DNA from: Methanospirillum hungatei JF-1
Lineage (GTDB): Archaea > Halobacteriota > Methanomicrobia > Methanomicrobiales > Methanospirillaceae
DNA length: 64,000 nt
NCBI RefSeq assembly: GCF_000013445.1
Contig: NC_007796.1
Location: 558,001-622,000 of the forward strand
Direction: 5' to 3'
The notes under the pieces are model-generated. The model had not been told where the DNA came from. It saw only the letters and a program-made list of their open reading frames with translations, and made no database searches. The position numbers were made by a program, and so were the translations under genes. Position 1 is the stretch's first letter, and each line of letters starts with the position of its first letter. Positions 3,271 through 47,202 of this stretch are shown piece by piece.

Positions 3271-3375
3271 CATCAACTCAATTGTTCATTATGAAGCTTC
3301 TTCTGGCCAGTGAAGAAACTTCATGATTCAGCACATCAGATATCTGGTATTCATATCTTCTGTGGGGGAGTATCC

Positions 3376-5604
3376 ATGAATTTTTCAGAAAAAAATATCC
3401 TATATGCAGGAATTGGAATAAGTATCCTGCTGTGTCTCCTGATACCATCGGTATGTGCAGGACCGTCTGATAACTGGTTCCCTGACAATCGATGGATCCA
3501 GCAAATTTCAGGTCAGAATTATCAGAATACCATCCAGATATCTGAAGAACATGCACCTGACCGGCTTATTGTCCGGTATAAACCAGAATCGATGAAAAGC
3601 CAGTCTGCCATGATGTCGGTACAGGCGATGGCACATGCAGAGGCAGGATCCCGGGTAGTTCGTGATCTCAGCACAAGCGGGGTTGTGGGGATGCAGGTCG
3701 TACAGGTGACTGGAACGAGCCTTACACGTGCCATGGAGATCTATGAAACAAATCCTGATGTCCTGTACGTGGAGCCCGATTACCGGATATCACTTAGTCC
3801 GATTGAAAAAACCGGGACATCTGCTCCAATTCAGGCCCAGAGTTTTCGTGCAGCAGGAACGGGGTGGCCAAATGATCCTGGATATTCCCAGCTCTGGGGT
3901 CTTGAAAATACCGGTCAAACTCCCTTTTATGGAAAAACAGGGGCAGATATCAAGGCTCCTTTAGCCTGGGGGGCAACAACCGGATCATCATCGGTTGTGA
4001 TAGCGCTCATTGATACCGGCGTTGATTATTCCCACCCGGATCTTTCTTCTAATATCTGGCAAAACCCGGGTGAGTATTCAAACGGGGCTGATGATGATGG
4101 AAATGGGTATATTGACGATATCAGGGGCTGGAATTTTGTCTCAAAAAATAATGACCCTATGGATGATAACGGACATGGAACACATTGTGCCGGGACCATG
4201 GCAGCCGTCGGGAACAATGGAATCGGCGTGACTGGTGTTAGCTGGAATACAAAGATCATGCCATTGAAGTTCCTTGACTCCAAGGGGTCCGGGTATACAT
4301 CCGATGCTATTTCAGCAATCCTCTATGCAACCCAGAAGGGAGTCCCCATCATCTCCTGTTCATTCAGCGGTCCGGGAGAGTCCCTTGCCCTCAAAGAAGC
4401 GATAGATTCCTCTTCTGCACTCTTTATCTGTGCAGCGGGGAATGCTGGTGCAAATTCTGACATTACTCCCCAGTACCCGGCTGCATATCCAAGTTCGCAG
4501 ATAATCTCCGTTGCAGCCTCTACCTATCATGACACTCTGGCTACGTTCTCCAATTACGGAACGAGTTCAGTTGATCTTGCCGCTCCGGGAGTCAGCATCT
4601 ACAGTACGACAAAAGCCGGAGGGTATTCTTATCTGAACGGTACGTCGATGGCTGTTCCCTATGTCACCGGAACAGCCGCCCTGCTCAAAGCCAGAAATCC
4701 CTCAATCTCTACACCACAGATGAAGAGTAAGATTCTGGGTTCATGCGATGTTCTTGCATCCCTTTCAGGAAAAGTTGCGACAGGCGGGAGGCTAAATGCG
4801 GCAAAAGCGCTTGATGTGTCCATTCCTACGCCGACTCCGACAATCACTCCTGTTCCCACGGTAACCCATACTCCAACTCCAAGCCCGACTCCGACATTTA
4901 CTCCTGTTCCTACGGTGACCCGCACTCCAACTCCCAGTCCGACTCCGACATTTACCCAGATTCCTACGGTGACCCGTACTCCAACTCCAAGCCCTACTCC
5001 GACATTTACCCCGGTTCCTACGGTGACCCGCACTCCAACTCCCAGTCCGACTCCAACGTTCACTCCTTCACCAACACAAGGGCCGGTCCCTCCGTGCGGC
5101 GTTTATAAAAAAGATATCCAGTCTGGTTTTCTCAGGCAGGGACAAGCAGCAGTGTACGGTTACTATATTCCGGTTGATGGACGGTCAAAGATTGAGTGGT
5201 CATTAACAGTCCGTGGAACATGTGGTGCTGGTCAGGGGATTGCAACCGCAGCAAAAACAGGAGGATTGAAGGATAATAACAATGCATGTGCCGGTTCATC
5301 AGTATTTGATCTGTATGTGTGCAGGGATTGTAATCCGCAGAATTCACGGTGTTATGCTAATTATTATGCCTATGGGCCGAATGCATACACCTCCATAACA
5401 AAGCCGGCGTCTGGTTCAACGTACTTTGTGATGATCTATGCCAGATCCGGAAATGGTATATATGACCTGCAGATGAACAGTTACAAATGTACAGGGAATA
5501 CTCCCATTATTGTAGCCTCTGCTGAACAGGGGATGCAGATGGCCGGAACTGACAGTGGGGCATCTCCTGCTTCCATCCCGGTCCCGACAGCCGAGTTTGT
5601 GTAG
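3376..5604 (+). CDS. Secreted subtilisin-like serine protease (S8) with C-terminal domain
   Basis: An extracellular endoprotease of 742 residues. The start ATG is preceded by GGGGGAG and opens a signal peptide (about residues 1-28); a longer frame begins 66 bases upstream but lacks a site. A pro-domain follows (about 60-145, DRLIVRYKPESM to VLYVEPDYRI). The S8 catalytic domain spans about 165-480 with D213 (LIDTGVDYSHPDL), H267 (NGHGTHCAG) and S424 (NGTSMAVP). Next comes a Thr-Pro linker made of four 18-residue repeats and a partial fifth, then a Cys-containing beta domain (about 575-700) resembling bacterial pre-peptidase C-terminal domains. The tail has no obvious membrane anchor. The gene converges with the binding-protein genes and probably forms its own transcript. 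Confidence 0.93.
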   Translation: MNFSEKNILYAGIGISILLCLLIPSVCAGPSDNWFPDNRWIQQISGQNYQNTIQISEEHAPDRLIVRYKPESMKSQSAMMSVQAMAHAEAGSRVVRDLSTSGVVGMQVVQVTGTSLTRAMEIYETNPDVLYVEPDYRISLSPIEKTGTSAPIQAQSFRAAGTGWPNDPGYSQLWGLENTGQTPFYGKTGADIKAPLAWGATTGSSSVVIALIDTGVDYSHPDLSSNIWQNPGEYSNGADDDGNGYIDDIRGWNFVSKNNDPMDDNGHGTHCAGTMAAVGNNGIGVTGVSWNTKIMPLKFLDSKGSGYTSDAISAILYATQKGVPIISCSFSGPGESLALKEAIDSSSALFICAAGNAGANSDITPQYPAAYPSSQIISVAASTYHDTLATFSNYGTSSVDLAAPGVSIYSTTKAGGYSYLNGTSMAVPYVTGTAALLKARNPSISTPQMKSKILGSCDVLASLSGKVATGGRLNAAKALDVSIPTPTPTITPVPTVTHTPTPSPTPTFTPVPTVTRTPTPSPTPTFTQIPTVTRTPTPSPTPTFTPVPTVTRTPTPSPTPTFTPSPTQGPVPPCGVYKKDIQSGFLRQGQAAVYGYYIPVDGRSKIEWSLTVRGTCGAGQGIATAAKTGGLKDNNNACAGSSVFDLYVCRDCNPQNSRCYANYYAYGPNAYTSITKPASGSTYFVMIYARSGNGIYDLQMNSYKCTGNTPIIVASAEQGMQMAGTDSGASPASIPVPTAEFV
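4834..5066 (+). repeat. Tandem 54-bp repeats coding a Thr-Pro linker
   Basis: Four full 54-bp units (starting at 4834, 4888, 4942 and 4996) and a partial fifth encode TPTFTPVPTVTRTPTPSP with small changes. The unit length is a multiple of three, so copy-number change would keep the protease frame. It acts as an extended spacer between the catalytic and C-terminal domains. Confidence 0.9.
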
Positions 5605-5689: not shown

Positions 5690-6925
5690 TCAGACCAGTG
5701 AAATGGTCATGAGTTCAAATCTTCCATCCTTAAATCCCCACCGGTCCATAGCACTGGTAGGTGCATGATTCATATCAAAAATCTTCGGGCCGGTCACCCC
5801 ATAGTATCTGGAGTTATCAAGACCCTCTTTGATCATTTCAGCCGTGATATTCTCCTCTCCGTTTCCATTCCTGAATGCATCGGCGATAAGCATCATGGAA
5901 TCATACCCATATCCTGCAAGGGTTTTCGACGGATCATTCCCAAATGCCTCCTGGTATGACTGAACAAACCGGTCAGAGTGGTCGCCTGGCACGAGATTTG
6001 TGTAGGCAGAGATGGTAAACAGGGGAAACCGGGAGAGTGCATCAGTCTCTTCTTTCTCCAGATTCTCAAGGCATGATGATTCGGTCAATAATACCTGTCC
6101 CCGGTATCCTGCTTCAGAAATATTCCGGATAAGAGGAATCTGCCGTGTATCATACATGATGATGACAATCGCATCCGGAGCTTTATCGAGGATTGTCCGG
6201 GTAAATGATGAAAAATCATTCTCCTCCGGGAGAACCGGGTATGTCCCTGAAATCTGGAAATCTTGCTCTATTAGGCCCTTTAGGATGTGATTCAGGACCG
6301 ATTCTCCGTATTTATCCTGAACATACACCAGGGCAGGACGGTCTGATGTGTAGGCCAGCCATTCTGAAACAAATTGTGCAAGGGCGAATATCGGAGGGTT
6401 GACCTGGTAAAAGAGCGGTGATATGCCATAAAGAGATTCTCCGTTCGCCTGGGGGGATATGAGGAGCGTGGTATCTGATTTTCCGGTTTCCCGTGCCATC
6501 GGAAGGGTCAGGGTAGTTGTATAGGATCCGATAACCACAGGAATAGAATCGGTCTGCATCTCCTTGAAAAGAGTCAATGCTCTGTCCGGGTCTCCGGTAT
6601 CATCAGCAACCTGGAGATCTACCTGATATCTGCATGTTTCGTCAGCGTTTATCTCATCTGCTGCAACCTGAATACCCTGAAGAAGATGAGAACCGGCCAC
6701 ACTATCATCGCCGCTCAATGGAAGAATGACTCCGATAGTAATTTTTGCCTTCTCTGGTTCAAGAGCAGAAACCGGAACAATGCAGCAAAGCAGGATGAGC
6801 ATAAGAAAGCCGGCAACGGAAATATGCCTGCAATTAATATTGATATCTAAAATACAGGATTGCTTCATTCCGGTTGTTCCACATTGGATGTTTGCATGAA
6901 TTTTATTTTGTTTATTCGGATGCAT
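5690..6925 (-). CDS. Exported branched-chain amino-acid-type binding protein (Peripla_BP_6)
   Basis: A type I periplasmic binding protein of the LivK/receptor-family class, about 411 residues. The hydrophobic export segment (SVAGFLMLILLCCIVPVSA) lies unusually far in, near residues 38-56. The mature domain starts with KITIGVILPLSGDDS and contains the family's VVIGSYTTTLTLPMA hinge and LAGYGYDSMMLIADA. I chose the ATG at 6925 because GGAGGAACATACG precedes it and it overlaps the end of the upstream protease-fusion gene by 14 bases, so the two are translationally coupled. No permease or ATPase genes lie nearby, so it is more likely a sensor or ligand-capture protein than part of a transporter. 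The ligand is unknown. Confidence 0.85.
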   Translation of the reverse strand: MHPNKQNKIHANIQCGTTGMKQSCILDININCRHISVAGFLMLILLCCIVPVSALEPEKAKITIGVILPLSGDDSVAGSHLLQGIQVAADEINADETCRYQVDLQVADDTGDPDRALTLFKEMQTDSIPVVIGSYTTTLTLPMARETGKSDTTLLISPQANGESLYGISPLFYQVNPPIFALAQFVSEWLAYTSDRPALVYVQDKYGESVLNHILKGLIEQDFQISGTYPVLPEENDFSSFTRTILDKAPDAIVIIMYDTRQIPLIRNISEAGYRGQVLLTESSCLENLEKEETDALSRFPLFTISAYTNLVPGDHSDRFVQSYQEAFGNDPSKTLAGYGYDSMMLIADAFRNGNGEENITAEMIKEGLDNSRYYGVTGPKIFDMNHAPTSAMDRWGFKDGRFELMTISLV

Positions 6926-9092
6926 CGTATGTTCCTCCAAAGAAGAGAGTTAAAGGTAAGTCAATTGACTCACACCCCCTGGATATCGTCGGATGGGATG
7001 ATCTGACATTATAATAAACATTCTGGTACAAATGTCTGATCGATCCGTCAAATTCGGGCTCTCTCAAAATTGTAATCAACCGGGAGGTAAATTCGTCTGA
7101 AAGCCAGTTTGAGAGTTCTGAGTCATAAGTTGCAGCCTTTGATGTCTCATCCGGTGCAGCAGCAGTTATTATGACCACTCCGGGAGTGGTAATCTCTGAT
7201 GCAATAACTCCGGAAAAACATGACTCAAGGACTAAAAGCAGCTGTCCAAACCTCCCTGACTCTTTCATTTCTGTCAGGGCATCGGCGAGTTCTTTCGGTG
7301 AGATATATTTACTCCCATCTCCGACGACAATATCTCCTCCCGGTTGTCCATGAGAGGATAGGTAGATAAGAACGGTAGAGTTTTCGTCGGATTTGAGCAA
7401 AGGGTCTCCGGCCTGTGAGCCCTTTCCGGTAAGGATGTCAAGGAACATGCCTTTATTCACCAGCTCTCCCGTAAGGTCAGGAATTGCATCCTTTCGAACT
7501 TCCTCAACAGATGGAGTATGATACACCTCCCCGGGCTTTTTGTTTCTTGTATCGGTCGGAATGTCATCATATACGAGCAGGGTAATATGATCATCAGGCA
7601 CTCCCTGGTCCCGGATATACTGGTACATGGTCAGGGCATCTGCCTGATGCCGGTAATTCTCCCAGTTATGGGATAGGCTTCCGATAACTGCCCAGAATTC
7701 ACCGGGTGGATGAGGGGTTGGATCAGGAGCCGGATCTGGAGATTCATTCAATCCGAGGAGTAGTCCGACATCAGACTTTGTTGTTCTCGTGTAAGCAATC
7801 GGATCTTCACGGACCATTCCCTCCTGTATCTGATAGGTTTCGTACCAGGGAATCAACCGGTCTGTACCTTCTTCCCTGAAGGTAAGAGGGCCGGTTGCTC
7901 CGGTGAGGATCGGTATATCCCCTGCAAGAATCTCATCCAATGCTGCCTGAATACCCTGCACTGTTCGTGGAATTGAATCTCCCGTCCCTTTTGTCAGGAC
8001 GGTCATAGCAGCAGTCTTTGGGGATATATCCGGAAAAGCCATAAACCGTGCCATAACCTGTGCACCGGCAAGAACCGCATCATAGGCCTCTGGGACATAT
8101 CCGGAGGTGTCGCCATGTGCGATTGCCTGATACTCTTCAGAAAATTGTAAATCCCAAGGCTTTTGCATAAGGATAAGGGTGTCATCAGGAACTTTGGTTG
8201 ATACTGTACTGACCGTGTCAATCTTCCAGAGTCCGGAGTCTAAAAGAGCCTGTAATGTCTCACTATCTGCCCGCTCCCATACCCGGCTGTCTGAATCGAT
8301 ATCAGGATAGACCAGATACAGTTTGGGCGGGGATGGCACATTTTTGAGAGAACTGATGACCTCACGTATCTCACTTCCTTCTCCTGAATGGATGAATATC
8401 AAAAAATCCGGATTATCTGTCAGTAATCGTCCGACTGCATCAGGAATCTCCTCCGTGGTGTTATATGTTTCTGCTCCCGTAACGGCTATCCCCTGTTCTA
8501 TGGCCCAGTAGGGAATCCAGTCATAAAATGTCTCTCCATATGAACTGTTTATGGTGAGGATCGAGACATACTTCCCGTCATGGGCTTTGATATGCTGCAT
8601 CATGACTGCAGTGGTCTCCCCGTCATTTGTTATGGTCCGCCATACCCCTCCGGTTCCTGCATAGGCACGATACATCTCATCAGATGAAGCAGTCGGTGAG
8701 ATGAGCACCCTATGATTTTTTATGAATATTTCTGATACCTGAAAGACTTCATCTGAAGTATATGGGCCGATAACCACCCGTATCCTGGGATCACGGACAA
8801 AATAATCCGCATACGTCATGATATCACCAAGCCGTGTATCCCGGAGAATTAACTCAAGCGGTCTTCCACCAATTCCTCCTCCTGCATTGATCTGGTCCCT
8901 GGCAAGGGTTATGGCATCATATAAGGGCTGCCCCTCCGGTCCGGAAAGGGGGAGAAGTACTCCCATGTATATTGGTTCAGTATCGGCACAAGCCGTCGAT
9001 GAGCAGAGAATGAATAAGAAAAAAAGTTGAATGCACCAAAATGAGGATATTATAACTGATTTATTATGCATAGATGGTCCATTGTCTTTCAT
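6912..9092 (-). CDS. Binding-protein domain fused to a C13 (legumain-like) cysteine protease
   Basis: A 726-residue exported protein with a signal peptide (about 8-36). Residues 38-445 form a Peripla_BP_6 domain (MGVLLPLSGPEG, VVIGPYTSDEV). A Pro/Asp-rich linker (DPAPDPTPHPPG) leads into a peptidase C13/caspase-fold domain, about 466-726. Catalytic residues are visible: H581 in YLSSHGQPGGD and C625 in LESCFSG, 44 residues apart, close to the spacing in legumain and GPI8. The strand before the Cys (QLLLVLES) and the strand after it (VVIITAAA) fit the clan CD fold. The product should act outside the membrane, where ligand binding could control the protease. It is co-transcribed with a second binding protein. 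The start is uncertain: an internal ATG at 9071 also fits. Confidence 0.85.
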   Translation of the reverse strand: MKDNGPSMHNKSVIISSFWCIQLFFLFILCSSTACADTEPIYMGVLLPLSGPEGQPLYDAITLARDQINAGGGIGGRPLELILRDTRLGDIMTYADYFVRDPRIRVVIGPYTSDEVFQVSEIFIKNHRVLISPTASSDEMYRAYAGTGGVWRTITNDGETTAVMMQHIKAHDGKYVSILTINSSYGETFYDWIPYWAIEQGIAVTGAETYNTTEEIPDAVGRLLTDNPDFLIFIHSGEGSEIREVISSLKNVPSPPKLYLVYPDIDSDSRVWERADSETLQALLDSGLWKIDTVSTVSTKVPDDTLILMQKPWDLQFSEEYQAIAHGDTSGYVPEAYDAVLAGAQVMARFMAFPDISPKTAAMTVLTKGTGDSIPRTVQGIQAALDEILAGDIPILTGATGPLTFREEGTDRLIPWYETYQIQEGMVREDPIAYTRTTKSDVGLLLGLNESPDPAPDPTPHPPGEFWAVIGSLSHNWENYRHQADALTMYQYIRDQGVPDDHITLLVYDDIPTDTRNKKPGEVYHTPSVEEVRKDAIPDLTGELVNKGMFLDILTGKGSQAGDPLLKSDENSTVLIYLSSHGQPGGDIVVGDGSKYISPKELADALTEMKESGRFGQLLLVLESCFSGVIASEITTPGVVIITAAAPDETSKAATYDSELSNWLSDEFTSRLITILREPEFDGSIRHLYQNVYYNVRSSHPTISRGCESIDLPLTLFFGGTYDASE

Positions 9093-9200: not shown

Positions 9201-11138
9201 TCATCGGGCGATGGCAGTATACTGCCCACTATCCTCATCAGGTGTAACGACAACCCTGATCGTACGCTTACTCCCGTCTGCCGTCTGTTTTGGTGAATAA
9301 TATCCCAGCGTGTATGTATGTGTAATAATCCCCTGGATATTGTTGAGAATTGTTGAAAATTCTTCCCCATGAATGTCAATAAAGAGACCACTTCCGCCGA
9401 GGGCCTTTACCAGCTCCCTTTTATCATTCTGCTCGTTAAATGCACCAGAGACGGTCGTCGGCCCGACAAGGACAAAACTTGTTCCGTTATTGAGCAAATT
9501 CTCCGCAGTTTCAGAGATGATATACTGTGAAAATGGAGAGCCATCACCCCGGTAGTGGGTCAGGTCATCGGTTATATCAATGATCATATGCTGTGCATCT
9601 GACCTGAATCCCATCTCCAGGGCAGCTTCAATGGCATCAAGGTTTGCTTCCGGTGCATCAAACCCTTCGCTGGCATGTAATCCGTCAACGGCCTGCTGTA
9701 TGACCAAGGGATCGGAAGTCCATTCCTGGTTTATGGTAACCGTGTCTTTAAAGCTGATGAGTGCATACCTGCAGTCAATCCCGGCGAGAGCGATACTTTT
9801 CGTCAGCCCCATAACTTTTTCTTTGGTTTCATTGATCTCGTCACTCATACTGCCGGTATCGTCAAAGAGGATGGCAAGATCTAGTTTTGATGTCGTGGAC
9901 TGGTCTGAAAACGCGAATGAGGTGATATTCATGAGTTCATTATCCTCAAACACCTGGAAATCCTCCTGTTTGAGTGCCCCGTTCTTTCCTGCAGTGCTGT
10001 TAACCGTGACATAGGTCATGATATAGGGAAAGTTCACCCCGTTAATGCCGGTAATGTCTACAACAGAAGTTCCATACGTGCTGATGTCATCAATGTCCCG
10101 GATTTGTTGCTGGCCCTGCATTCCTGAAGTGTCTTTGGTCTCTGACGGTGCAGGAGAGAATATACGGTCTTTCTGAACTTTGAAAAGTCCGGTTGCTGAA
10201 TCTGCACCAACTCTGATCTCAAGGGTGATTTTCTGGTCCTCGCCATACATTCGTGGAGTGAAATAACTGATGGTATAGGTATGGGTGATTATGGACTGGA
10301 TTCTATCAAGGATGGTGGAGAATTCATCTCCATGGATGTCGATAAAGAGACCACTGCCTCCAAGTGCTTTCACGATCTCTTTTTTATCGGTATGCACGTT
10401 AAATCCGCCTGATACTGATGAAGGCCCGACCAGAATGTAACTGGTTCCGTTCTGCAGCAGGTGACTTGCGGTTTCAGGAATAGTATACTGAGAAAATTCT
10501 GTTCCGTCGCCCCGGTAATGGGTTATGCTGTCGGTGATGTCAAGGATCATGTGCTGGGCATCAGGCCTGAACCCTGACGAAAGGGCAGTTTCAATGGCAT
10601 CAAGGTTTACTTCCGGTGCATCGTCTCCTCCATCCGCCTCAAGACTGTCAACAGCCTGTTTGATAAGACTCGGATCAGACGTCCATCCCTGCCGGACGGT
10701 GAGGGAATCGCGAAAACTAATGAGCATGTACCTGCTGTCAATATTCGCACTGTCGATGGCATCCGTCAGTTCATTAACCCGTGCTTTCATATCGGCAATC
10801 TCTTCGCTCATGCTCCCGGTCTCATCAAAGAGAATGGCAAGATCCAGTTTGGTCCGTGATGAAGTATCCGGAAACTGAACGGAGGTTATCTCCATCAGAT
10901 CACCGTTTTCAAAGACCTGAAAGTCATCTGCAGTCAGGCTCCCCTCTCTTCCTTCCGGAGTGTTAACCGTGACATAGGTGATCACGTTGGGGAAGTTTAC
11001 CGCGTTAATTCCGGTTATGCCAAGAACCTGTGATTCAGTGTCATTTGATCCTTCAGATGCAGCCACAATATGGGCTGTACAGGCAAGGATGCAGAGTCCG
11101 ATGATAAGTATGATACGTGCTGCCGTTTTTTGATGCAT
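9201..11138 (-). CDS. Exported protein with two tandem VWA domains
   Basis: About 645 residues with a signal peptide (AARIILIIGLCILACTAHIV). It consists of two copies of one long unit, each with a short beta-rich lead (GITGINAVNFPN...TYVTVN, DDFQVFENGDLMEITS) and a von Willebrand A domain. Both MIDAS motifs are present (LAILFDETGSMSEE and LAILFDDTGSMSDE), so metal binding should be intact. The copies also share the HMILDITDS/HMIIDITDD and KALGGSGLFIDIHG blocks, which indicates internal gene duplication. The ATG at 11138 has an AAGGAGGT site six bases upstream; the ORF extends 11 codons further without one. A role in surface adhesion or complex assembly is likely, but the partner is unknown. 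Confidence 0.85.
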   Translation of the reverse strand: MHQKTAARIILIIGLCILACTAHIVAASEGSNDTESQVLGITGINAVNFPNVITYVTVNTPEGREGSLTADDFQVFENGDLMEITSVQFPDTSSRTKLDLAILFDETGSMSEEIADMKARVNELTDAIDSANIDSRYMLISFRDSLTVRQGWTSDPSLIKQAVDSLEADGGDDAPEVNLDAIETALSSGFRPDAQHMILDITDSITHYRGDGTEFSQYTIPETASHLLQNGTSYILVGPSSVSGGFNVHTDKKEIVKALGGSGLFIDIHGDEFSTILDRIQSIITHTYTISYFTPRMYGEDQKITLEIRVGADSATGLFKVQKDRIFSPAPSETKDTSGMQGQQQIRDIDDISTYGTSVVDITGINGVNFPYIMTYVTVNSTAGKNGALKQEDFQVFEDNELMNITSFAFSDQSTTSKLDLAILFDDTGSMSDEINETKEKVMGLTKSIALAGIDCRYALISFKDTVTINQEWTSDPLVIQQAVDGLHASEGFDAPEANLDAIEAALEMGFRSDAQHMIIDITDDLTHYRGDGSPFSQYIISETAENLLNNGTSFVLVGPTTVSGAFNEQNDKRELVKALGGSGLFIDIHGEEFSTILNNIQGIITHTYTLGYYSPKQTADGSKRTIRVVVTPDEDSGQYTAIAR

Positions 11139-11289
11139 GAAATACCTCCTTGAATTACAGGAGTATTGCATGTGGGCTGCATATATATTTCGAAATCATC
11201 CTGATGATCAATCATATAAAATTTAATTTTCTCCGGATTTTTTAAGATTCGAATGAAATTATAATTGTTCGGGACACTAAATATTATGC

Positions 11290-11706
11290 ATGTCACAGGG
11301 CATCAGGTATATACAACGTCTTCAAAACTATAACCGTGCCCTTTTGATGGTACAGGAAGGGGTTCAATCATATACCTCGCGTCCTCTATCAAATATGGAA
11401 AAACAGGGGTTCATCAAATCCTTCGAATTTACGTATGAATTAGCTTGGAATCTGATGAGAGATTACTCTCTCTATCAGGGGCATCAGGAGATTCGAGGTT
11501 CTCGTGATGCCATCCGGCTTGCGTTATCAATGGATCTAATTTCTGATGGTGAAATATGGATGGATATGCTTGAATGTTGTTATATTACCTCACATACATA
11601 TGATGAAAATACCGCAGAAGAGATTATGCAAAAGATAGCTTTCCGGTATTTCCCTGCTATGGTAGCATTTCAGGAGAAGATGAACAGGATTGCCAATGAA
11701 GGATAA
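11290..11706 (+). CDS. HI0074-family nucleotidyltransferase partner (HEPN-like helical bundle)
   Basis: A 138-residue all-helical protein of the nucleotidyltransferase substrate-binding family, paired with MNT-type nucleotidyltransferases in toxin-antitoxin-like modules. Family marks are FIKSFEFTYELAWNLMRDY, EIRGSRDAIRLAL and TSHTYDENTAEEI. In related proteins the segment before TSHTY normally reads R-N-x, giving an R-x4-H motif; here it is C97-Y-I before T-S-H102, so the arginine is missing. The stop overlaps the nucleotidyltransferase gene by 11 bases. The ATG lacks a ribosome binding site and may be leaderless. Confidence 0.82.
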   Translation: MSQGIRYIQRLQNYNRALLMVQEGVQSYTSRPLSNMEKQGFIKSFEFTYELAWNLMRDYSLYQGHQEIRGSRDAIRLALSMDLISDGEIWMDMLECCYITSHTYDENTAEEIMQKIAFRYFPAMVAFQEKMNRIANEG

Positions 11707-12034
11707 ATCTTCTTTCGGATTATCAGAGATCCAATTAGAACGAATCCGAAATTCATTAGCCCGATGTCCCCGATTAAATCAGGCCTTTATTTTTGGTTCA
11801 CGGGCTCTTGGAACATATCGGAACGGTTCTGATATTGATATTGCCCTTGATGGAGAGGAACTGACGTTTGAGGATATACTCAGGCTCCATACCCGGATAG
11901 ATGATCTGAATCTTCCATACTTTGTAGATCTTGTCCATATTCAGCGAATTGAAAACTCTAACCTTCTGGATCATATCAGGAGGGTTGGGAAAAAAATATT
12001 TTCTCGGTGGCCGAATTCTCATGATTGCCTATGA
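11696..12034 (+). CDS. MNT-type minimal nucleotidyltransferase
   Basis: A 112-residue protein of the Pol beta superfamily. The signature FIFGSRALGTYRNGSDIDIAL contains the GSRA loop and the metal-binding D-I-D pair, and a third acidic residue appears in VDLVHI. Such proteins adenylylate and neutralise the HEPN-like partner encoded just upstream. I prefer the ATG at 11696; a TTG two codons earlier is also open. It overlaps the upstream gene, so the pair forms one translational unit. Confidence 0.83.
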   Translation: MKDKSSFGLSEIQLERIRNSLARCPRLNQAFIFGSRALGTYRNGSDIDIALDGEELTFEDILRLHTRIDDLNLPYFVDLVHIQRIENSNLLDHIRRVGKKIFSRWPNSHDCL

Positions 12035-44371: not shown

Positions 44372-44647
44372 TTATCCTCCTGAAACCGGCGGGAAGAGAA
44401 TGATCAGATCACCATCTGCGAGTGGAACTGATTCTGCCTCCATCGGTGAAATACGGGTATCATGATGCATGATCATAACATAACTTCTGATATTGTGTGC
44501 AGTATCAACGAGCAGCTCAGCATCCGGACCATCTCCTGCAAGAGCTCTGACCGCATCATGAATCGTTGATCCTTCCGGAAGGTCAAGGGTTTGTTCTTCT
44601 CCAAATGCATCCCTGAATCGTGCATAACACCGAATCGTAACCTTCAT
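44372..44647 (-). CDS. moaD: Molybdopterin synthase sulfur carrier MoaD
   Basis: A 91-residue ubiquitin-fold protein whose C-terminal Gly-Gly (LFPPVSGG) is adenylated by MoeB and then carries sulfur as a thiocarboxylate to MoaE. The beta-grasp strands VTIRCYARFRDAFGE and DGDLIILFPP are clear. It overlaps moeB by 4 bases (ATGA). The same C-terminus could in principle donate sulfur to other acceptors. Confidence 0.92.
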   Translation of the reverse strand: MKVTIRCYARFRDAFGEEQTLDLPEGSTIHDAVRALAGDGPDAELLVDTAHNIRSYVMIMHHDTRISPMEAESVPLADGDLIILFPPVSGG

Positions 44648-45396
44648 TCATTATCTCCTTTATAAGAACATACCGGACAGTTCTTCCGCTTACCAATCGT
44701 TAAAAATTCACTTCTACCCGCCTGTCCGTCCCAGAGGAATAACCTTCCTGATATCATAGACCCGGTTCCGGTCAGGTATTTTATTGCCTCCATTGCCTGT
44801 ATGGATCCAATAACTCCTGCAACGGCGCCAATAACCGGAACTTTCCCGCCAGGAGGTGCAGCGGGGATAAGGCAGGAAAGGCAGGGGGACTGACCGGGGA
44901 GGATGCTCGTCATCTGGCCTGAAAATCCTTCTATCGCTCCATGAATAAATGGAATATCTGCGTTCCAGGCTGATTCATGCAGAATGAACCGTGTTTCATA
45001 GTTATCCAGGGCATCAATGACCACATCTGCGTCTGCAACAAGCCGATCTGCTGATCCCTCATCAATCCGCCCAGGATATGCAACAACCGATGTATCCGGT
45101 GCGAGGCTGCCAAGAGTTGCCTCAGCTGAATATACCTTCTGGAGACCGACAGATGCAGCGGCGTGCAGAAACTGCCGGTTCAGGTTTGACTCCTGAATAC
45201 GATCATCATCGACAATAATCAGTTCTCCAATACCTGCCAGGGCAAGATAGGTTGCTGCAGGTGATCCAAGTCCTCCTGCCCCGGCAATGAGGATTGTGGA
45301 ATTTTCCAGTTTCTTCTGTCCCTCATGGCCGATAAGAGGCAATTGCCTCTCAAATCGGCTGGATAGATATGATGGCGGTATTTTTTTCATGAACAA
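44644..45396 (-). CDS. moeB: MoeB/ThiF-type adenylyltransferase
   Basis: An E1-like enzyme of 250 residues that activates the C-terminus of MoaD with ATP. It has the nucleotide loop AGAGGLGSPAATYLALAG, the arginine finger SNLNRQFLH, DALDNYETR, and two zinc CxxC pairs (CLSC and CPVC). No rhodanese domain is attached. It overlaps the end of tfuA by 10 bases and moaD by 4, so all three are translated as a block. ThiF or HesA function is an alternative, but the neighbours favour MoeB. Confidence 0.9.
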   Translation of the reverse strand: MFMKKIPPSYLSSRFERQLPLIGHEGQKKLENSTILIAGAGGLGSPAATYLALAGIGELIIVDDDRIQESNLNRQFLHAAASVGLQKVYSAEATLGSLAPDTSVVAYPGRIDEGSADRLVADADVVIDALDNYETRFILHESAWNADIPFIHGAIEGFSGQMTSILPGQSPCLSCLIPAAPPGGKVPVIGAVAGVIGSIQAMEAIKYLTGTGSMISGRLFLWDGQAGRSEFLTIGKRKNCPVCSYKGDNE

Positions 45397-46028
45397 AACC
45401 TGTCTCTGATGTACGCAAGGGTTTCTTTTGCGTCTTCCTGCTTTTGATCAATCCGATGTTCTCTGATCCATTTCATCATCTCGTCTGTCCGGTCTGGATC
45501 AAAGGTGCATTCTTTCAGGATGCGTGGCCATGACCGATCCGGATACCAGAGTGACTGTCCGGTTCTCAGGATCTGTTCTGCTTCATCTTCCGTGAAAAAT
45601 CCAGTTCTGACCCCATGCCGGAGGGTGATCCGGATATTTACCAGCGCCTCAGAAAAGGCCATGTTTGTTGTGGGGTCACATATCAGGGCCACTTCATCAT
45701 CTGATTCGATCTCCCCGTCCCGGTACATTCTGAAGATCTCACCAATTCCAATCATGCCAAATGGTTCAAGTTCTGCGGCACGGAGCGCGCCCATGCTTGA
45801 GGCACCGATGACGGTAATTCCATGTTTCATCACTTCAAGGACTTCCCGGTGACCAACGGCGGCATCCTCAAAGAACACTCCATCAATGATTCCAACCACT
45901 CTGGGTCTTATATGTATGATCTCAAGGAGATCAACCCGTCTTACCGGTGGACGGTATTCGGCTGCAAGGATCCTCAGAGCTTCAGGAATCGACAGGCTTG
46001 GTCCCAGGAATATAATTACGTCGTGCAC
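45387..46028 (-). CDS. tfuA: TfuA, partner of YcaO thioamidation
   Basis: TfuA works with YcaO to change the peptide backbone of a glycine in methyl-coenzyme M reductase into a thioamide, probably by handling sulfide. The protein has the family opening DVIIFLGPSLSIPEALRIL, then GIIDGVFFEDAAVGHREVLE, GASSMGALRAAEL and GEIFRMYRDGEIESDDEVAL. The start is unclear: I chose a GTG directly before the conserved region. ATGs at 46067 and 46088 would extend it inside the ycaO coding end. It overlaps ycaO by about 47 bases. Confidence 0.88.
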   Translation of the reverse strand: MHDVIIFLGPSLSIPEALRILAAEYRPPVRRVDLLEIIHIRPRVVGIIDGVFFEDAAVGHREVLEVMKHGITVIGASSMGALRAAELEPFGMIGIGEIFRMYRDGEIESDDEVALICDPTTNMAFSEALVNIRITLRHGVRTGFFTEDEAEQILRTGQSLWYPDRSWPRILKECTFDPDRTDEMMKWIREHRIDQKQEDAKETLAYIRDRFCS

Positions 46029-47202
46029 GTCTACACCGTTCTCCGATACGTTCGGGATCCATTGCATAGTGTTCAAGTCCAGGCACAATTACTCTGACAA
46101 CCGGCACCCCAATCTCCGGTCTGGTCAGGTCATGTACGATCACCCGGTCAAGTCCTGCTGCTTTCAAGCGGTCAAGAACGATGTGAATGTCATCCAGAAA
46201 GTCATCGGTATGGTATGATGGCATATCTTTGTATGCGATTTCCGCTTCGGTGGTAAACCATTTTTTATTCAATCGCTTGGCGCGGTCGTATCCGACTTTT
46301 GAGAGGAAATGAGTTGTTTTTGTATCTTCCCGTGCTCCATGGATCTGTGTGGCCCTGCTCTGGGCTACTTCTGTAAGGGCTCTGAGAATTGCAATCTCAC
46401 TGCAGAGATGTGATCCCATTCCGATGCACAGGAGCGTCGGATCGCGAAGCTGGAGATCATCTGATACTGCCGCGACGGTCGGGATTCCAAGGTCACTTGT
46501 GATATCGCGCAAAATTACATCTACCCCGGCCTCTTTAAACTTGTCAAGAAGTTCACGGGCAACCGGGTGGGTCACGTCTGTTATCGCCGGACCTGCATTC
46601 TGTGATGCTTCTACCAATGACCAGGCGTCCCGCTCTATAAGTTCACACAGGCTGTGAAAGACTGCTTCTTCATAGGTATTGCCTGATGCGATTCCGTTTG
46701 TACTGGTCCTGAATAACTTCCCCATGATCCGGGGTACCGGATGAAAGACTGCATGTGCAGGAACCCAAACCTCTTCGTTGCGGAGGATATCATATCCCTG
46801 CCACCAGGGAATAGGCCATTCCGGTTCTGCATATTCGGGAAGAATGAGAGTATCTGGTCGTATTGCATTCTTCTCCATACGAATCTGGTCATAGGTCATG
46901 GTCTGCGGGCTGCGGTCATGGACCTCTGCTGAATATCGTTCAAGACCTTCCATAATTGCCGATACTCTTGCAGCGATGGGGGTTGCTCCTTTCCCATTAT
47001 ATACCGTTATGGCGCCTTCGGCAGCAACCGGACGAATACAGGAAAAAACAGGGATGCCTATTCTGTCAAGACCGGTGATATCAGCAACCCTGGTAATTCC
47101 GGCCGGCCCGGTGAGGTCATGGACTGCTTCATAAGTCTCTTCTGGAGATCTGGTCCGATGAGTCTCCTTTTGGTAGAGTTTTTTGCAGGACGAGAGTATC
47201 AT
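45982..47202 (-). CDS. ycaO: YcaO-domain thioamidation enzyme
   Basis: A 406-residue ATP-dependent YcaO protein. In methanogens it phosphorylates the amide of a conserved McrA glycine so that sulfur can replace oxygen. Family blocks: KGATPIAARVSAIMEGLERYSAE (ATP/Mg region), TNGIASGNTYEEAVFHSLCELIERDAW and RALTEVAQSRATQIHGAREDT. The C-terminus is Pro-poor and ends in GTKPVDS. It opens an operon with tfuA, moeB, moaD and moaE. McrA itself is not in the window. A role in making a ribosomal peptide is less likely, as no precursor peptide is visible. Confidence 0.9.
   Translation of the reverse strand: MILSSCKKLYQKETHRTRSPEETYEAVHDLTGPAGITRVADITGLDRIGIPVFSCIRPVAAEGAITVYNGKGATPIAARVSAIMEGLERYSAEVHDRSPQTMTYDQIRMEKNAIRPDTLILPEYAEPEWPIPWWQGYDILRNEEVWVPAHAVFHPVPRIMGKLFRTSTNGIASGNTYEEAVFHSLCELIERDAWSLVEASQNAGPAITDVTHPVARELLDKFKEAGVDVILRDITSDLGIPTVAAVSDDLQLRDPTLLCIGMGSHLCSEIAILRALTEVAQSRATQIHGAREDTKTTHFLSKVGYDRAKRLNKKWFTTEAEIAYKDMPSYHTDDFLDDIHIVLDRLKAAGLDRVIVHDLTRPEIGVPVVRVIVPGLEHYAMDPERIGERCRRARRNYIPGTKPVDS

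Follow-up and report, generated by a model that had tools for sequence, protein, structure and literature searches.

A recurrent prokaryotic fusion of a Venus-flytrap domain and a legumain-type peptidase in Methanospirillum hungatei, with a second flytrap gene adjoining

Among described systems, the closest to the locus analysed here are the asparaginyl endopeptidase legumain (MEROPS C13, PF01650), the catalytic subunit of GPI transamidase (also C13), the flytrap domains of LivJ/HAAT-type proteins (PF13458) and of ANF-receptor/mGluR proteins, and the BMP/PnrA-type binding proteins (PF02608). Eukaryotic legumain is silenced by a C-terminal prodomain. The zwitterionic S1 pocket of the human enzyme is formed by Arg44, His45, Ser216 and Asp231 (PMC4357240). 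No description of a prokaryotic legumain or of a fusion between a substrate-binding protein (SBP) and a C13 peptidase was found in the open-access literature, and NCBIfam holds no model for such a fusion; the novelty of the present case is that known families are joined in a recurrent architecture.

The window, a stretch of 64,000 nucleotides of the genome of Methanospirillum hungatei JF1 (contig NC_007796.1, positions 558,001 to 622,000), contains this fusion as a single open frame with an ATG start and no internal stops. Its features, in window coordinates, are as follows.

6912..9092, minus strand: SBP-C13 fusion gene, 726 aa, exported product (open reading frame; PF13458 and PF01650; AF2 model, fold match)
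8985..9071, minus strand: signal peptide or signal anchor, residues about 8-36, ...FFLFILCSSTACA followed by DTEP (sequence; model helix 11-33)
7803..8981, minus strand: type I periplasmic-binding (Venus-flytrap) domain, residues about 38-430 (Pfam, fold match)
7707..7802, minus strand: Pro-rich linker of low model confidence, residues about 431-462 (pLDDT 40-55; sequence varies across the family)
6918..7706, minus strand: C13 legumain-fold peptidase domain without C-terminal prodomain, residues about 463-725 (Pfam, phmmer, alignment, fold match)
7350..7352, minus strand: codon of the catalytic His, H581, in SSHGQ (sequence; invariant in 50/50)
7218..7220, minus strand: codon of the catalytic Cys, C625, in ESCFSG (sequence; 49/50)

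Both halves of the protein were recognized by Pfam. PF13458 (Peripla_BP_6) matches residues 40-237 (E 4e-19, 69.8 bits against a cut-off of 31.7), PF01094 (ANF_receptor) matches residues 58-422 (E 3e-10), and PF01650 (Peptidase_C13) matches residues 467-700 (E 8e-47, 160.4 bits against a cut-off of 22.8). An AlphaFold2 (AF2) model built from a 50-sequence alignment reached pLDDT 85 and pTM 0.85, with low confidence at flytrap residues 266-304; in this model residues 37-430 superpose on periplasmic-binding proteins with Z about 32, and Foldseek agrees. The earlier note, which was made from the letters of the sequence, had read residues 38-445 as a periplasmic binding protein and residues 466-726 as a C13 protease. 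Both assignments are borne out with slightly shifted borders (about 38-430 and about 463-725), the second by the 160-bit match and the legumain fold. The proposed catalytic residues H581 and C625 lie exactly where they had been placed, and export of the product is likewise supported by computational tools.

The key residues of the C13 domain are N479, R481, H482, H581, E623, C625, S651 and D666. In 50 diverse aligned fusions N479, R481, H482, H581 and S651 are invariant, C625 is kept in 49 and replaced by Ser in one (L149), position 623 is Glu or Asp, and position 666 is Asp or Asn. N479, present in all 50, is the equivalent of Asn42 of legumain, and R481, H482, S651 and D666 are the equivalents of the four S1-pocket residues of the human enzyme, all of them in place. 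The Ser-bearing protein (L149:6043-7986) still has a BMP gene adjoining it, and its genome bin also contains another fusion (L135); judged by this substitution, it is possibly a pseudo-enzyme. The best solved relative is legumain (4nok; phmmer E 2e-31 across fusion residues 444-697), and in the AF2 model residues 463-725 superpose on human legumain over about 257 residues with Z 39 and an rmsd of 1.6-1.8 A, with which Foldseek agrees. The chain ends at residue 726, together with the peptidase domain, so the C-terminal prodomain is absent. No fixed self-cleavage Asn was found in the linker: 38 of 50 linkers contain an Asn, the position of which is not constant. The M. hungatei genome (3,544,738 bp, single contig) has no C13 gene besides the fusion.

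The same fold comparison places the catalytic subunit of GPI transamidase (8imx_K, Z 37.9) and the peptide asparaginyl ligases (Z about 36) near legumain (Z 39). The C13 domain could thus be a transpeptidase or transamidase, like GPI transamidase subunit K or the plant asparaginyl ligases, and attach or sort exported proteins instead of breaking them down. We consider this improbable, since the best sequence match is animal legumain and not GPI transamidase, and the clustered neighbouring genes show no conserved sorting-signal family.

Fusions of this kind form a prokaryotic family of wide distribution, which spans archaea and several bacterial phyla. The first recovery gave 29 fused proteins with the same domain order from 26 genomes. 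When all of GTDB was scanned with the alignment of fused proteins as query, 304 stretches matched; the analysis uses the best 80 of them, which correspond to 79 loci. These best 80 of 304 come from Methanospirillum, Methanoregula, Methanocalculus, Myxococcota, other former deltaproteobacteria, Actinomycetota, Bacteroidota (Bacteroides, Prevotella, Muribaculaceae) and Fibrobacter, and nearly all of them are one frame of 650-800 aa with both halves present. An assembly artefact or a one-genome curiosity is ruled out by the fused relatives in so many genomes. The bacterial fusions have lipoboxes and are predicted lipoproteins; the archaeal ones have signal anchors or signal peptides. The earlier note had framed the architecture as archaeal; it does occur in archaea, and a restriction to them does not hold, since bacteria carry the family too. 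In the tree of fusions the methanogens fall into one supported clade, which includes two bacterial rows, and the Methanospirillum-type fusions sit on a long branch of this clade. Genome bins may contain foreign contigs, and the direction of transfer is therefore left unclaimed. Viral contigs were scanned without finding any relative, which gives no backing to a viral or mobile origin, and a defence-system reading was dropped as PADLOC gave no match for the locus. In four genomes (G027, G085, G094 and G231, at L062, L058, L061 and L064) the C13 part lies in a short frame that starts within the flytrap; they point to a frameshift, the edge of a contig or gene decay, and G027 is a one-contig genome.

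The fusion gene of M. hungatei is followed by a second gene.

5690..6925, minus strand: partner flytrap gene, Peripla_BP_6 (PF13458 E 1.9e-39; kept in all Methanospirillum-type loci)
6934..6938, minus strand: GGAGG Shine-Dalgarno of the partner gene, within the last codons of the fusion gene (sequence)

Its true start is likely ATG 6925, 8 nt past the GGAGG, and not TTG 6940 of the ORF listing. With this start the two genes overlap by 14 bp, and this overlap, together with the GGAGG embedded in the 3' end of the fusion gene, suggests translational coupling. The overlapping downstream binding-protein gene that the earlier note reported is therefore real (Peripla_BP_6, E 2e-39). A Peripla_BP_6 flytrap gene occupies this slot in all six Methanospirillum-type loci (M. 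hungatei and five orthologous loci), and no PF02608 gene is present in the whole M. hungatei genome. The partner forms a clade of its own (support 99), separate from the flytrap of the fusion, with which it shares about 25% identity, and a recent duplication that would make it a decoy copy of that flytrap is accordingly unsupported. Flytrap proteins also occur elsewhere in this genome: a Peripla_BP_6 lipoprotein gene overlaps a large PAS/histidine-kinase-like gene (L085:4617-8542) and is possibly used for signalling, and a 793-aa protein has two flytrap domains in tandem (L082:3458-5839).

Clustering of neighbouring genes, with no family chosen beforehand, revealed a recurrent gene of about 330 aa beside the fusions. 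Pfam identifies it as BMP/PnrA-like (PF02608), with a Bacteroides example falling below the cut-off (E 5e-4). By profile search of the best 80 of 304 matches, 47 of 79 loci have a BMP-type gene that adjoins the fusion on the same strand, and in 43 of them the two genes overlap; the BMP gene lies downstream in archaea and in one Bacteroidetes bin, and upstream in the remaining bacteria. Loci with neither type of partner exist as well, chiefly several Methanoregula copies and most Myxococcota, which means that some members lack a partner or may have it encoded elsewhere. The overlapping second gene nevertheless belongs to the fusion system. The position of the partner is conserved and its occupant differs, most simply through an exchange in the Methanospirillum lineage. 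Three roles had been offered for the second gene, those of partner, decoy and ligand deliverer. The first is favoured, because the slot is conserved by position though its occupant depends on the lineage; no evidence was found for the other two.

Further information on the pairing comes from several Methanomicrobiales genomes (L070-L074 and L076-L081), in which a flytrap of this family is joined to a BMP flytrap in one frame with no C13 domain. In the tree these flytraps fall inside the SBP-C13 family (support 100), where they make up at least two separate groups. The fusions link the flytrap and the BMP protein functionally and show that this pair does not always include the protease. Most simply, though this is not proven, they would have arisen through a deletion that removed the C13 part of a fusion gene next to a BMP gene, and we read the protease output of the putative two-flytrap receptor as detachable.

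Other genes near the fusions were recorded too. Just upstream of the M. hungatei fusion, on the same strand, window positions 9201-11171 encode an exported protein in which two von Willebrand A domains, near-duplicates of each other, stand in tandem; it was rejected as a part of the system as it was not found in the loci of the fusion's relatives. Facing the fusion operon, positions 3310-5604 encode an exported subtilase (PF00082) that contains a long region of Thr-Pro repeats, and a similar subtilase gene lies beside the fusion locus of M. stamsii (L089). Overlapping NTase_sub_bind (PF08780) and nucleotidyltransferase (PF18765) genes at 11290-12034 form a toxin-antitoxin-like pair, and overlapping genes at 44644-47202 form a ThiF-TfuA-YcaO cluster. 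In Bacteroidota a lipoprotein family is found near the fusion in 10 loci, often with two members per locus (L151, L152, L157, L170, L174, L175, L177, L180, L182 and L183); the members that were scanned contain MACPF (PF01823) and BACON domains. These lipoproteins are possible substrates or functional partners of the fusion protease.

As for the ligand, residues S113, T/S136 and D264 of the flytrap are kept in 45, 49 and 48 of the 50 aligned fusions, and align with the amino-acid-contacting Ser, Thr and acidic sites of LivJ-type proteins. This family-wide conservation suggests an amino-acid-like ligand, and the sequence profiles of the flytrap match amino-acid SBPs and mGluR domains; for most of the family we infer an alpha-amino acid or a similar compound. 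In the Methanospirillum group the acidic site D264 varies and Q160 is not retained, which, with the low model confidence at residues 266-304, means that the ligand may differ or the binding may be weakened there.

Of 99 locus records, some overlapping, 3 contain ABC transporter parts, and no ABC permease or ATPase gene lies beside the fusion within the window. This near-absence makes uptake an unlikely role and bears on two other explanations. That the fusion is an ordinary transporter SBP with an acquired protease domain and no shared function agrees with the matches of its SBP domain to transporter SBP families. We hold this to be very improbable, because archaea and bacteria alike retain the fusion, 49 of 50 members have an intact active site, the methanogen members share one supported clade, and hardly any transporter genes lie nearby. 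The flytrap could also dock or target a constitutively active protease for nutrition or envelope turnover, with the second flytrap catching the products and no gating involved; by binding a fixed surface ligand, a peptide or the partner, it would confine the protease to one site. The flexible linker, with its low model confidence and variable sequence, suits such tethering, and anchoring signals are found throughout the fusion family. This explanation deserves weight but appears unlikely to us, since captured products would have no obvious uptake route and flytrap-BMP fusions have survived with no protease attached, which points to a sensing core.

The reading that we favour, and judge evenly balanced between right and wrong, is a surface-anchored, ligand-controlled cysteine protease in which a two-flytrap receptor gates its attached C13 peptidase. 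The fused flytrap would pair with the co-translated second flytrap protein outside the cytoplasmic membrane, this second subunit being of the BMP type in most lineages and a Peripla_BP_6 protein in Methanospirillum. Opening or closing of the pair by ligand would expose, activate or aim the legumain-type peptidase, which would cut extracellular or cell-envelope proteins, probably after Asn or Asp. The flytrap would then stand in for the prodomain that holds eukaryotic legumain inactive. The earlier note had suggested a receptor that controls extracellular proteolysis; the cross-phylum fusion, the intact site, the few ABC genes, the coupled second flytrap and the protease-free flytrap-BMP proteins all speak for this, and the control itself we infer. 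More tentatively, and as a somewhat doubtful generalization, the family may comprise cross-domain heterodimeric flytrap receptors in which the sensing of a small molecule outside the cell directly turns a fused legumain-type protease on or off; the partner would be exchangeable between lineages, and the protease would be absent where the output has changed. If the proposal is true, it would reveal a widespread prokaryotic extracellular receptor-protease, present in gut Bacteroides and in methanogens, in which a GPCR-like flytrap pair directly controls a caspase-fold enzyme, a signal output that we have not found described in the open-access literature. It would also give the legumain/GPI-transamidase fold a prokaryotic setting, with a control device unlike the legumain prodomain.

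Compared with known systems, the usual second gene of the fusion loci is a member of the BMP/PnrA-type family (PF02608), but here it is paired with an SBP-protease fusion and not with an ABC importer, and it is missing in M. hungatei. The flytrap of the fusion shares its fold (Z about 32) with LivJ/HAAT-type proteins and with ANF-receptor/mGluR ligand-binding domains, from which it differs in being covalently linked to a protease, with transporter genes nearly absent nearby. The catalytic subunit of GPI transamidase resembles the peptidase half in fold (Z about 38), a kinship known here from fold similarity alone; unlike that subunit, the fusion carries a flytrap, and its sequence match to it is weaker than that to legumain. 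Legumain itself shares the complete peptidase fold (Z 39, about 30% identity), with equivalents of the catalytic His, Cys and Asn and of the S1 residues Arg44, His45, Ser216 and Asp231 (PMC4357240). In contrast to legumain, the fusion has neither an activation peptide nor a C-terminal LSAM prodomain, and it is a prokaryotic, exported or anchored protein whose flytrap lies N-terminal to the peptidase.
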